Assembly (NCBI GenBank): GCA_018261655.1
Contig: JAGTSG010000004.1
Coordinates: 1-56,690 of the forward strand
Direction: 5' to 3'
DNA: 56,690 nucleotides
From: Pseudomonadota bacterium
GTDB taxonomy: Bacteria > Pseudomonadota > Gammaproteobacteria > Steroidobacterales > Steroidobacteraceae
The notes beneath the pieces are model-generated. The model had not been told where the DNA came from. It saw only the letters and a list, made by a program, of their open reading frames with translations, and searched no databases. Below are positions 16,387 to 56,193 of the stretch, piece by piece (the first letter of the stretch is position 1; each line of letters opens with the position of its first letter). Position numbers and translations under genes: made by a program.

Positions 16387-17049
16387 TCATCCCTGCTCGC
16401 CGCCGCCCGCCCACGTCCCGTCCCACGCGAGTCCCAGTTCCCGGCACAACAGCGGCGCCAGTTCCTCCGCCGCCTCGCGCACCGTCAGGCGCGCGCCGAG
16501 CGCCGCCAGCTGGGTCATCTCCAGCCCCGCGTAGCCGCAGGGGTTGATCCGGCGAAATGGCGCCAGGTCCATGTCCACGTTGAGCGCGAGGCCGTGGTAG
16601 CTGGCGCCATGGCGGACGCGCAACCCGAGGCTGGCCAGCTTGCGCCCCGCCACGTAGACGCCGGGCGCGTCGCGCCGGCCGGCCGCGTCGATCCCGTGCC
16701 GCCCCGCGAGCGCGGCGATCGCCCGCTCCAGCGCGCACACCAGCGGCCGCACGCCGAGCCCCAGGCGCCGGAGGTCGAGCAGCGGATAGACGACGAGCTG
16801 GCCCGGGCCGTGGTAGGTCACCTGCCCGCCGCGATCGATCGCCACGACAGGGATGTCGCCGGGCGCGAGCAGGTGCTCCGGCCGGCCGTTCATGCCCTGG
16901 GTGAACACCGGCGGGTGCTCCAGGAACCACAGCTCGTCCGCCGTATCCTCGCCGCGCAGCTCGTTGAAGCGCTGCATCGCCCGCCAGGTCGGCTCGTACT
17001 CGACCCGGCCGAGCCAGCGGACAAGGGGGGCCAGGCCCCGCTCCGGCAC
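16387..17049 (-). CDS. lipB: Octanoyl-ACP:protein N-octanoyltransferase
   Basis: LipB moves octanoate from acyl carrier protein to lipoyl domains, the step before LipA. From GTG 17049 the product is 220 residues. The active-site pair is C171 (RINPCGYAG) and K137 ([13 protein letters not shown]), within two positions of the E. coli residues C169/K135. The substrate motif [15 protein letters not shown] is also present. This GTG lies inside a REP-like palindrome. A TTG at 17103 overlapping the OsmC-like stop would add 18 residues encoded by the palindrome; I prefer 17049 because family similarity begins at [11 protein letters not shown]. Confidence 0.93.
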
Positions 17050-17080
17050 GGTCCCGCTGCCAGAGCGGGGGCTGACCCCT
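17024..17080. repeat. REP-like long inverted repeat at the lipB start
   Basis: Arms of about 25 bases (17024-17051 and 17056-17080) pair with only a few mismatches around a 4-base loop. The outer ends read AGGGG...CAG-CCCCGCTC and its complement. The structure resembles the extragenic palindromes (REP/RAYT type, GGGGTCAG...CTGACCCC) common in GC-rich Proteobacteria. It straddles the junction between the OsmC-like gene and lipB and contains the preferred lipB GTG. I saw no second copy in the window. Confidence 0.7.
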
Positions 17081-17099
17081 GCGGACGCCCGGGCGGTGT

Positions 17100-17534
17100 T
17101 CAACCCGCGACGACCTCCGCCTCGAGGTGGCGCTCGGCGGTGAGCGAGTTGGAGACGAGGCAGACCTTCTCTGCCTTCTCCATCAGCGTGTGGGCGCGCG
17201 CCGCATCGGTCCCCGGCGGCACGGTCAGCCGGGCCCGGACGGTGACGCGCGTGAAGCGCGTGACGCCCTCGATCCGCTCGAGGACGCCGTCCACGTCGAC
17301 GGCGACCCGTGACCACTCGAGCTTCGAGGCGCGCGCGATGGCGCGGAAACTGAGCACGAAGCACGAGGCGACCGCGGCCGTCAGCAGCGTCTCGGGCGAC
17401 CAGTAACCGGGTGGCCCGTCGAACTCCGGCGGCGCGTGGAGCGGCAGGTCGGGCAGGTCGACGCCGCTGAGCGTCACCTCGCCTTCGGCGGGCGCTGCGA
17501 CACTGACCTTGTAGAGGTGCGGATAGGGATGCAT
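17100..17534 (-). CDS. OsmC/Ohr family protein
   Basis: This is a 144-residue OsmC-fold protein. The two redox cysteines of the family are visible in [13 protein letters not shown] and EKVCLVSNS, and the helix-start [15 protein letters not shown] is typical. Members reduce organic hydroperoxides with lipoylated-protein or thiol partners, which fits its place between lipA and lipB, although the exact substrate cannot be read. ATG 17534 has a GGAG seven bases upstream; earlier in-frame residues belong to the lipA 3' end. Its TGA overlaps a TTG that could start lipB. Confidence 0.85.
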
Positions 17535-17554: not shown

Positions 17555-18571
17555 TCAGCCGGCGGCGGGCGACTCCAGCCCGCAGTTGTTCCTCTCCAGC
17601 GCGCGCTCGGCGCGATAGCTGGAACGGACCATCGGCCCGGAGACGCACTCGAGGAACCCGTGCGCCAGGGCCCGGTCACGACAGGCGTCGAACTCTGCGG
17701 GCGTGACGTAGCGTTGCACCGGCAGGTGGTTGACCGTCGGCCGGAGGTACTGGCCGAGCGTCAGCAGGTCGCAGCCGGCGTCGCGCAGGTCCCGCATCGC
17801 CTCGTCGATTTCCGTGTCGGTCTCGCCGAGGCCGAGCATCAGGCTGGTCTTGGTCAGCACGCCCGGCCGGTGCCGCTTGGCATGCGCGAGCACGGCGAGC
17901 GTCTGCTCGTAACCTGCCCGCGGGTCGCGAACCGGGTGCGTCAGGCGCCTGACCGTCTCCACGTTCTGCGCGAAGACGTCGAGGCCGGAATCAACGACCG
18001 TTTCGACGTCGGCCAGCACGCCCTGAAAGTCCGGTGTCAGGGCCTCCACGGCCGTCGCCGGACTGGCCTCCTTGATCGACCGCACGCAGGCCGCGAAGTG
18101 GGCCGCGCCGCCGTCCGCCAGGTCATCACGGTTGACCGAGGTCAGCACGACATACCGAAGCGCCATCAGCTGGACGGTGCGGGCGGCATTCGCCGGCTCC
18201 TCGTGGTCGAGCCAGCCGCGGGGGTTGCCGGTATCGACCGCGCAGAACCGGCAGGCGCGGGTGCAGACGGCGCCCATGAGCATCAGGGTCGCGGTGCCCG
18301 CGTTCCAGCACTCACCGATGTTGGGGCACCTGGCTTCCTCACAGACCGTGCTCAGCCGGTGCTCGCGCACGATGCCGCGGACCGCGTCGAAGCGCTTCCC
18401 GGCCGGCATCGGCGCCCGCAGCCAGCGGGGCTTCCTGCCGACCACCAGCGGCTCGGCGCCGGCCGACTGCTTGACGCCGTCACGGATGGCGGTGAAACCC
18501 TGTGGCGTCACGTACTTCTGGCCACTCGTCCTGGCGCCGCGGACGATGGGGATGCCCTTGAATTCGCTCAT
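17555..18571 (-). CDS. lipA: Lipoyl synthase
   Basis: LipA is a radical-SAM enzyme that inserts two sulfurs into octanoyl groups on lipoyl domains. The 338-residue protein has the auxiliary-cluster motif [12 protein letters not shown], the radical-SAM motif CTRACRFC and the C-terminal RSSY serine motif (MVRSSYRAE). The start is ATG 18571; no strong ribosome site is visible. It is followed after 20 bases by the OsmC-like gene and then lipB. The gap to the upstream murU is 32 bases. Confidence 0.97.
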
Positions 18572-53277: not shown

Positions 53278-56193
53278 TTATAGGGGCGAAGGCTCGCCGC
53301 CAGCGACCATCACCGCCTGCCATACGCGCAGCACCCGATGGCGCCCGGCCTCGAGAGGCCCGCCCGGGACCACCGGCGGACGCTCCTCGAGCGACAGACG
53401 ATGCGAGATCTGGCGGAAGGACCGGTAGGCATCCACGAGGGCGTCGATGACCCGGTGGTCGACCAGCGCCGCGGAGCCCACCGACTCCAGCTGGCGGATC
53501 GTGTCGGAGTAGGCGGCGAGCGGCGGGTACTCGCCGGCCCAGCGCAGTACCCAGTACTGTGCCAGGAACTCGATGTCGGCGATGCCGCCCGGGTCCTGCT
53601 TCAGGTCGAACTCGCCCTCGCCCGCGCGACCGAGCTCGGCACGCATCCGTTCGCGCATGGACCGCACGTCCTCGCGCAGCGTGTCGCGCCTCACGTGGCG
53701 GGTGAGCACCTCCATGCGGATCCGCTCGAACTCCGCGCGGACGGGCGGCGCGCCGGCCACCGAGCGGGAGTGCAGCAGCGCCTGGTGCTCCCAGGTCCAC
53801 GCGTCCCGCTCCTGGTACTCGGCAAAGGCCCGCACCTGCGTCACGGTCAGCCCGCCCTTGCCGCTCGGCCGCAGCCGCATGTCCACCTCGTAGAGCCGGC
53901 CCGCGGCGGTGTGCACCGTCAGCAGGTGCACGAGTCGCTGCCCGAAGCGCGTGAAGAACACCGCGTTGTCCACCACCTTCGGGCCCGCCGTCTGCTGCCG
54001 CTCGCCCTCGGAGTCGTGCAGGAAGACCAGGTCGAGGTCGGAGGCATAGCCCAGTTCCCATCCTCCGAGCTTGCCGTAGCCCACTGCCGCGAGGCCCACG
54101 GTGCGCAGCTGCCCTTCGGCGCCGCACTGCGGCTCCCCGTGGATCGCGACCAGCTGGTCCCAGGCCATGCGCATCGACCGCTCGAGGATGAGCTCGGCCA
54201 CGTCGGTGAGCCGATCGCTGACGACCATCAGCGGCAGCCGGCCGGTCAGGTCGAGCAGCGCGACGCGAAAGGAGGCCGCGCGCCGGAAGTGGCGGAGCGC
54301 GTCCACCTGCCGCTCGAGGTCGTCAGCGGCGTGTTCGAGTCGCGCGTCGAGCTCGCGCGCGAACTGCGCGCGGTCCGGAAGGACCTCGAAGAGCCGCTCG
54401 TCCACGAGTTCGTCGAGCAGGATCGGGAAGGCGGCGACCTGCCGGGCCAGGAAGTCGCCCTGCTCGCAGGCCTCGACCAGCCGCTCGAGGGCCTGCGGAT
54501 TCTCGTTCAGCAGCGCCAGGTAGGCCGTGCGCCCGCCGATCGACTCGACGATGCTGCACAGCCGCCTGAGCAGCGCCGCCTCGCCGTCGTTGCCGCGTAG
54601 CCCGGCGCGCGCCACGATCGTGCGCAGCAGGCGGGGCAGCAGCGTCGCCAGTCGCCTGCGGCCGTGCTCGTCGAGCCGGGCCTGGTAGCTCGAACCGGGC
54701 AGCTCGAGCAGCTGCCCTGCCACGGCCTCCGGGTCGGCGAGGCCGAGTGCCGCAAGGTCCTCGATGACCCGCTGCCGGTCCGGTTCCATCGCCCACAGCG
54801 AGGCGAGGTCGCCGGGCCCGGCGGGCTCCGCCTCACGGGACGGTCCGAGGATCACGTCGCGGAATCTCGCCGTGACGCGCCCGCGCACCTCTTCCAGGGC
54901 GCGCGAGAAGCTGCCCCAGTCCGCGTATCCCATGCCTGCGGCGACGCGCGCCCGGCCCAGTGCGTCCGCCGGCAGGTTGTGGGTCTGGGCGTCGTCCACC
55001 ATCTGCAGGCGGTTCTCCACGCGGCGCAGGAATTCGTAGCAGCCGCCCAGTTCGGCGACCGCCTCGTGCCTCAGCAGCTTGGAGCCCTCCAGCAGGGGCA
55101 GGACGCCGAGCAGGGAGGGATTCTGCAGGCGCCGCTCGCTGCCGCCGCGCAGCAGCTGCAGGGACTGGACGACGAACTCGACTTCGCGGATGCCGCCGGG
55201 ACCGAGCTTCACGTTGTCCTGCAGCTCGCGGCGCGCGACTTCGCGGGCGATCATCTCCTTCATCCCGCGCAGCGACTCGAACACGCCGAAGTCGAGGTAC
55301 CGGCGGTAGACGAACGGGCGGACGACTTCCTCGTAGAGCGCTTCGTAGGCCGCCTCGCCCGCCACCGCGCGCGCCTTGACGTAGGCGTAGCGCTCCCAGT
55401 CGCGCCCATGCTGCTGGAGGTAGTCCTCGAAGGCGCCGAAACTCGCGACCAGCGGGCCGGACTCGCCGAAGGGACGCAACCGCATGTCGACCCGGAAGGC
55501 GAAGCCGTCCACGGTCGGCGCGTCGAGCAGCCGGATGAGCATCTGGCCGAAGCGCGTGAAGTACTCCTCGTTGGCGATGCTGCGTCGCCCGTCGGTCTCG
55601 CCGGCCTCCGGATGGAGGAACACGAGGTCGACGTCGGAGGAGAAATTGAGCTCGCGGCCGCCCAGCTTGCCCATGCCCAGCACGAGGAGCTCCAGCGGCG
55701 CTCCTGACGCGGAGCGTGGCCGCCCGAACCGCGGCGCCAGCGCGCGGGTCGTGAACGCGTGCGCCGCGCGTATTGCGGCATCGGCCAGTCCGGAGAGGCC
55801 GCCGAGCGTCTCGGCCAGCGACGCGCCGCGGGCCAGGTCGCGCCAGGCGATGCGCACCATTTCACGGTGCCTGAGCCGCCTGAGCGCCGCCATGAAGGCA
55901 GGCTCTTCGGGAAACTCATCGACCAGGGCAAGCGCGCGGGCCTCGATCCCTCGCGGCTGGCCGGGCCGGTCGAGCTCCCCGCCCGCGACCAGAGACGGCA
56001 GCAGTCCGGGGGAGCGGCTCAGTGTCGCGGCGATGAACTCGCTGCAGGCAAAGACGCTGGCAAGCTCCGGCTCGCCAAGTCCCGCGTCGTCGCCGCCCGC
56101 GGCACGGTAGCGGTCCAGCAGCTCGCGTCCGCGCGCCGCGAGCTGCCCGGTGACCGGGGGCAGCGCGGGACCCGGCTCAGCTTCCCCGGACAC
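53278..56193 (-). CDS. glnE: Bifunctional glutamine synthetase adenylyltransferase/deadenylase
   Basis: GlnE adenylylates glutamine synthetase when nitrogen is plentiful and removes AMP when it is scarce. The 971-residue protein (E. coli 946) has two nucleotidyltransferase domains. The deadenylase active site is in LLVLGMGKLGGRELNFSSDVDLVFLH and the adenylylase site in LAAVGYGKLGGWELGYASDLDLVFLHD. A helical regulatory linker joins them. GTG 56193 starts 2 bases after the EamA stop and is preferred over GTG 56232, which would overlap the EamA coding region. Confidence 0.96.
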   Translation of the reverse strand: MSGEAEPGPALPPVTGQLAARGRELLDRYRAAGGDDAGLGEPELASVFACSEFIAATLSRSPGLLPSLVAGGELDRPGQPRGIEARALALVDEFPEEPAFMAALRRLRHREMVRIAWRDLARGASLAETLGGLSGLADAAIRAAHAFTTRALAPRFGRPRSASGAPLELLVLGMGKLGGRELNFSSDVDLVFLHPEAGETDGRRSIANEEYFTRFGQMLIRLLDAPTVDGFAFRVDMRLRPFGESGPLVASFGAFEDYLQQHGRDWERYAYVKARAVAGEAAYEALYEEVVRPFVYRRYLDFGVFESLRGMKEMIAREVARRELQDNVKLGPGGIREVEFVVQSLQLLRGGSERRLQNPSLLGVLPLLEGSKLLRHEAVAELGGCYEFLRRVENRLQMVDDAQTHNLPADALGRARVAAGMGYADWGSFSRALEEVRGRVTARFRDVILGPSREAEPAGPGDLASLWAMEPDRQRVIEDLAALGLADPEAVAGQLLELPGSSYQARLDEHGRRRLATLLPRLLRTIVARAGLRGNDGEAALLRRLCSIVESIGGRTAYLALLNENPQALERLVEACEQGDFLARQVAAFPILLDELVDERLFEVLPDRAQFARELDARLEHAADDLERQVDALRHFRRAASFRVALLDLTGRLPLMVVSDRLTDVAELILERSMRMAWDQLVAIHGEPQCGAEGQLRTVGLAAVGYGKLGGWELGYASDLDLVFLHDSEGERQQTAGPKVVDNAVFFTRFGQRLVHLLTVHTAAGRLYEVDMRLRPSGKGGLTVTQVRAFAEYQERDAWTWEHQALLHSRSVAGAPPVRAEFERIRMEVLTRHVRRDTLREDVRSMRERMRAELGRAGEGEFDLKQDPGGIADIEFLAQYWVLRWAGEYPPLAAYSDTIRQLESVGSAALVDHRVIDALVDAYRSFRQISHRLSLEERPPVVPGGPLEAGRHRVLRVWQAVMVAGGEPSPL

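Follow-up and report, generated by a model that had tools for sequence, protein, structure and literature searches.

Where does lipB begin when a long palindrome lies across its 5' end, and what kind of palindrome is it? These questions are raised by the window (the whole stretch of 56,690 nt analysed, contig C51 of G000), which belongs to a 2.2-Mb Steroidobacteraceae genome in 122 contigs, 74.6% complete. On its minus strand, lipA is followed by an osmC-like gene and then by lipB, whose product groups with the octanoyltransferases (LipB), scoring above the cut-off of the equivalog HMM NF010922. The original prediction described a REP-like hairpin on the best GTG of lipB and left two alternatives: either lipB uses the TTG ahead of the palindrome, which is then coding, or its expression is limited by the hairpin. 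The features concerned are the following.

17555 to 18571, minus strand: lipA, 338 aa, upstream of the osmC-like gene
17100 to 17534, minus strand: osmC-like gene, upstream of lipB (PF02566, E 2e-17)
17114 to 17118, minus strand: Shine-Dalgarno-like GGAGG, 10 nt ahead of the TTG (by sequence inspection)
17101 to 17103, minus strand: favoured lipB start TTG, overlapping the osmC stop as TTGA
16387 to 17103, minus strand: lipB as read from the favoured TTG, 238 aa (NF010922, 296.9 bits, cut-off 235)
17023 to 17080, minus strand: degenerate dispersed palindromic element, two inverted units of the GGGGTCAG type around a 9-nt loop
17058 to 17079: palindrome arm, 22 nt, with an intact GGGGTCAG motif on the minus strand
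17047 to 17049, minus strand: alternative lipB start GTG, paired in the predicted hairpin stem
17027 to 17048: palindrome arm, 22 nt, overlapping the GTG at 17049-17047 by two bases

The long imperfect palindrome is real, its two 22-nt arms matching at 19 of 22 positions by Watson-Crick pairing across the 9-nt loop, and two mismatches become G-U pairs on the lipB mRNA strand. It follows osmC and precedes the conserved LipB core, with the GTG inside it and the in-frame TTG ahead of it, as first described. The predicted mRNA-strand hairpin reaches -47.8 kcal/mol (z -5.4 against 200 shuffles; z -2.8 for a 151-nt stretch around it).

The start of lipB can be approached through the same junction in relatives. 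Of the family genomes, 205 have a LipB match; 157 of these, with 22 genomes of the same order, make up the set of 179 considered here, and the 48 family genomes outside it include G179, whose contig begins at lipB. An NTGA overlap in the lipB frame is found at 10 of 13 osmC-lipB junctions (G000 included) and at 84 of 138 lipA-lipB junctions, the other 28 genomes having no adjacent lipA or osmC match (22), fused genes (4) or genes that run far over each other (2). The three osmC-lipB exceptions are G003, G004 and G005, with 90, 94 and 65 nt. In the congeners G001 and G002, which lack the element, the TTGA is kept, only 8 nt lie between the osmC stop and RWLG (the conserved LipB start motif), and lipB starts at the TTG of the overlap, 4 codons ahead of RWLG; a comparison with close relatives, as the original prediction had proposed, thus finds the start without the element. 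In G000 the corresponding distance is 80 nt, whereas the nine other junctions of the NTGA type span 8-20 nt.

Because most osmC-lipB junctions show the NTGA overlap, the TTG alternative, with a coding palindrome, is the better supported of the two originally left open, and lipB most likely starts at TTG 17103. The palindromic element would then probably be translated as part of lipB, a short extra piece of protein spanning about residues 8-27 counted from that TTG. The frame does stay open from TTG 17103 across the whole palindrome, which is weak evidence because, by inspection, two of the three frames of the family consensus are without stops; the coding reading of the element is favoured, short of proof.

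How well does the other start survive? If lipB began at GTG 17049, only the second half of the element would be coding, and the rest would form a 5' leader whose hairpin masks the start and lowers or regulates translation. Such a protein would be a LipB of ordinary length, beginning 10 codons ahead of RWLG, the hairpin that covers the start is very stable, and, according to the available portion of PMC3733652, REPs annotated at N-termini may in many cases lie outside genes. However, the GTG would be base-paired within that very hairpin, has by inspection no clear Shine-Dalgarno sequence of its own, and competes with a conserved TTGA-overlap start that is present and in frame, so that we regard this possibility as unlikely.

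The fold alone is insufficient for the case because palindromes of like score are common at such composition. A bare palindrome with the lipB copy's score of 13 is nothing unusual in so GC-rich a window, as the same value is reached at 54216-54328 and the maxima in 20 dinucleotide shuffles of the window range from 11 to 16. What places the lipB palindrome beyond chance is its membership of a repeat family. The original prediction supposed that copies would exist elsewhere, and they do: GGGGTCAGNCCC has 44 exact matches in the incomplete G000 genome (none for the reversed control), and the DNA of the lipB element itself has matches elsewhere in G000 at E 8.4e-6 and 3.5e-4. Copies share one layout, with GGAGGGGTCAGRCCCCGCTCTGTCCCC and its reverse complement separated by a loop whose length varies. 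With a covariance model built from nine G000 copies, the lipB copy being left out, at least 30 distinct places (57 strand matches) are found in G000 at E 0.01, the nine training copies included, with 36.8-79.6 bits for the 30 places listed and 150 of 1578 candidates scored. In the 56.7-kb window the lipB copy is the only place recognised by the model, with 34.7 bits and E 0.0003. It is absent from the 30 places listed for the genome at E 0.01 among those 150 candidates, and it is a diverged member, since its score falls below all of theirs: GCA stands in place of the outer GGA, and a single base sets the second arm (GGGGCCAG) apart from the motif.

The low model score of the lipB copy, together with a palindrome score expected at the base composition of the window, would fit a GC-rich palindrome that arose by chance in lipB coding sequence and is only similar to the repeat. 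Against this stand the GGGGTCAG core and the CCCCGCTCTG and GAGCGGGGCCTG blocks, all common to the family, the significance of both the DNA and the model matches, and a junction of 80 nt against the 8-20 nt of its counterparts, which together make chance very improbable. Least probable of all is a non-mobile element, either a conserved regulatory RNA or an osmC-lipB terminator, for which the stable fold (z -5.4) could speak, but Rfam yields nothing at E<=1 between 16500 and 17600, the hairpin is followed by no T-run, no terminator is called at the site, many copies lie at other loci, the congeners G001 and G002 lack it, and no palindrome of score >=12 overlaps the lipB start in any of 80 named gammaproteobacterial loci, so that among these the hairpin is not a conserved part of lipB, a point on which the original prediction had turned.

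Elsewhere in G000, 22 of the 30 places listed are intergenic, with flanking coding signals (read by eye, with a cut at 0.2 per codon) in different frames or broken by stops; the other 8 have a clear coding signal on one side or none. At C35:52161 and on C18 and C117, the element starts at the stop codon of the gene upstream. Copies starting at a stop codon read TAGGAGGGG or TGAGGAGGGG (L016 at about 1496, L002 at about 1497, L275 at about 1485). Among 11 other genomes, with 150 candidates scored in each, the model recognises one place in G005, one match in G013 and 35 strand matches in G029, and matches nothing in G001-G004, G015, G025, G045 and G060. The window palindrome at 54216-54328 is imperfect as well and, by inspection, unrelated to the repeat.

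To which class does this family belong? RAYT-like genes flanked by GGGGWSAS inverted repeats have been named TIRYT (Di Nocera et al. 2013, PMC3733652, available portion), and they probably correspond to subclass 2.1 of TnpAREP, as far as the accessible text of PMC6006769 indicates. GGGGTCAG fits the GGGGWSAS motif, with one arm intact in the lipB copy, and genomic copies are repeated and self-complementary or paired; by these sequence marks the class is that of the GGGGWSAS inverted repeats of TIRYT-type REP-associated tyrosine transposases. Resemblance to the TIRYT/TIRtron elements, as they appear in that portion of PMC3733652, extends to a moderate number of dispersed copies and to a repeat flanking a Y1 transposase gene in the relative G029, whereas G000 is without a detected TIRYT gene and its lipB copy is decayed and in a coding frame at a gene start. 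With the REPINs and canonical GTAG REPs (PMC3116915 and PMC3686654, in their accessible parts), the element shares two inverted palindromic units paired in one larger hairpin, and RAYT-type transposases are present in relatives of G000; in contrast, the GT(A/G)G expected at the hairpin foot is replaced by GGAG in most of the family and by GCAG in the lipB copy, the G000 family has no GTAG or GTGG tetranucleotide, and units mostly open with GGAGGGGTCAG. The term REP-like thus holds for a repeat palindrome of the kind associated with REP transposases, but the type is GGGGWSAS. Rickettsia palindromic elements, described in the same portion of PMC3733652, are likewise read in frame within functional protein genes, but they form another sequence family (with CGTC ends) in another host. 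The literature searched yielded no paper holding GGGGTCAGACCCC, nor, including the accessible part of PMC3917532, one on Steroidobacteraceae with palindromic repeats.

The search for a RAYT transposase, another suggestion of the original prediction, had a divided outcome. Family and protein searches found no TIRYT-type transposase in the 74.6%-complete G000, an absence that may reflect the incompleteness of the genome; in G029, a REP-type tyrosine transposase gene (L112, 2187-2975) is flanked by inverted GGGGTCAGACCCC. Its product reaches 36.9 bits with PF01797 (cut-off 23) and 71.7 bits with NF047646, below the cut-off of 80, and likely represents the type of mobiliser of the repeat family. 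Flanking inverted repeats with a score of at least 12, of several types, occur at 18 of the 20 transposase loci examined. Those of Y1 transposase genes in relatives (L065-L083) include GGGGACAG, GGGGTCAG, GGTGCCGGG, GGGACATTCC and GTAGGAGC.

The account in which we place good confidence is that an old, partly decayed copy of the TIRYT/REPIN class landed in the osmC-lipB junction, and that lipB starts at TTG 17103 and is translated through it. Family membership marks the feature as a partly decayed, non-autonomous palindromic element, which would have inserted into a short osmC-lipB junction after the lineage split from G001 and G002. Translation from TTG 17103 would be coupled to osmC termination via the TTGA, as the conserved arrangement suggests, and reading through the element would add a short repeat-coded N-terminal extension ahead of the RWLG strand. 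The mRNA hairpin would then come after the start codon, within reach of elongating ribosomes that can unfold it, which would allow lipB to stay expressed. Such an event would be of a known type, since N-terminal repeats of this kind are described in PMC3733652 (accessible portion). The same insertion was found in no second genome; the element is absent at the lipB site of G001, G002 and G029. Two candidate signals were discarded, namely a target-site duplication GTCCGC (17081-17086 and 17017-17022), attributed to chance as no such flanks are seen by eye in other copies, and a match of L300 to the LipB N-terminal extension, due to an Ala-rich stretch with no element.

Other palindromes are found at the lipB junction of a few relatives. 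In G004 (L035, about 1430-1500), GGGGACTGTCCCC is nested twice within 16-bp arms at the osmC-lipB junction; this palindrome is apparently all in the lipB frame, and the sole ATG, GTG or TTG in the open stretch ahead of RWLG is a TTG before it. In G005 (L036, about 1470-1495) an ATG that overlaps the stop of osmC is followed, in the lipB frame, by a half element, GGGGTCAGTCCCC, which need not be coding, because a GTG comes after it, one codon ahead of RWLG. The 90-nt junction of the congener G003 (L037) holds a palindrome of marginal score (11), yet of another sequence. Applied to the junctions of 11 sources, the model built on G000 copies recognises the lipA-lipB linker of G060 (36.6 bits, E 0.0001) and, weakly, the G004 junction (E 0.03), and matches none of those of G005, G015 and G035. 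A long junction needs no element, as many palindrome-free lipA-lipB gaps exceed 80 nt.

Five of the 179 genomes (G000, G004, G015, G035 and G060) have a palindrome of score >=12 at the lipB junction, which makes 7 of 181 loci, two genomes being entered twice. A hotspot for palindromes at this junction is unproven, the excess being weak since about 2.2 loci are expected from the overall density of 90 per 1.21 Mb. Among the 80 named gammaproteobacterial loci, four have a palindrome of score >=12 further upstream of lipB, and GGGGWSAS occurs near lipB in 8, an estimated chance level for so short a motif.

The most marked case is found in a sister genus (g11), where three of four genomes have a lipB match and all three show lipA and lipB as one open frame of 581, 590 and 620 codons, respectively:

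G015, L062, 379 to 2121: joined lipA-lipB frame
G035, L119, 370 to 2139: joined lipA-lipB frame
G060, L120, 1456 to 3315, minus strand: joined lipA-lipB frame

Each of these frames scores above the cut-offs of both TIGR00510 (LipA) and NF010922 (LipB), and their linkers are palindromes with perfect arms of 36, 32 and 28 bp in the same order. The linkers match repeats of their genomes: the pattern GGTGCCGGG-N55-85-CCCGGCACC, of which the G015 linker carries both ends, has 78 forward matches in G015 and 19 in G035, and GGGGTCAGACC-N5-35-GGTCTGACCCC has 14 in G060, with overlapping matches counted twice and none for the controls. The G015 and G035 linkers contain no ATG, GTG or TTG; in G060 a GTG stands one codon ahead of KWLG, so that two separate proteins may be made there. 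How could such frames arise? Given the usual NTGA overlap of lipB with lipA or osmC, the two frames can become one when 3n+1 nucleotides are inserted ahead of the stop. A fusion can also precede or do without a repeat, since G176 (L166), from a different genus, has an in-frame lipA-lipB fusion with a short linker holding neither a palindrome nor an ATG, GTG or TTG.

Repeat insertion in the sister genus seems to go with the joining of two lipoic-acid enzymes into one protein. We propose, tentatively and with somewhat more doubt than assurance, that transposase-linked palindromes repeatedly enter the junction before lipB in this family and become translated, and that g11 makes a LipA-linker-LipB protein whose linker is written by a mobile repeat (in G015, G035 and possibly G060), either through 3n+1 inserts or through an earlier fusion later decorated. 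The element in the window bears on the annotation of the lipB start and would illustrate how a gene for lipoate synthesis can tolerate a mobile palindrome within its first codons. The joined lipA-lipB frames merit further attention, since these junctions would be natural cases in which repeats write a linker joining two enzymes that act in the same pathway, and would allow a direct test of whether miniature mobile elements create fusion proteins. In the literature searched, including the accessible part of PMC3917532, no paper was found on natural LipA-LipB fusions or on fusions made by REPs. A likeness exists with the LplA-LipA fusion NF053790, in which lipoyl synthase is likewise fused to a lipoyl-transfer enzyme, but in the g11 frames LipA comes first and a repeat-coded linker connects it to LipB, and they reach 364-367 bits against a cut-off of 800.
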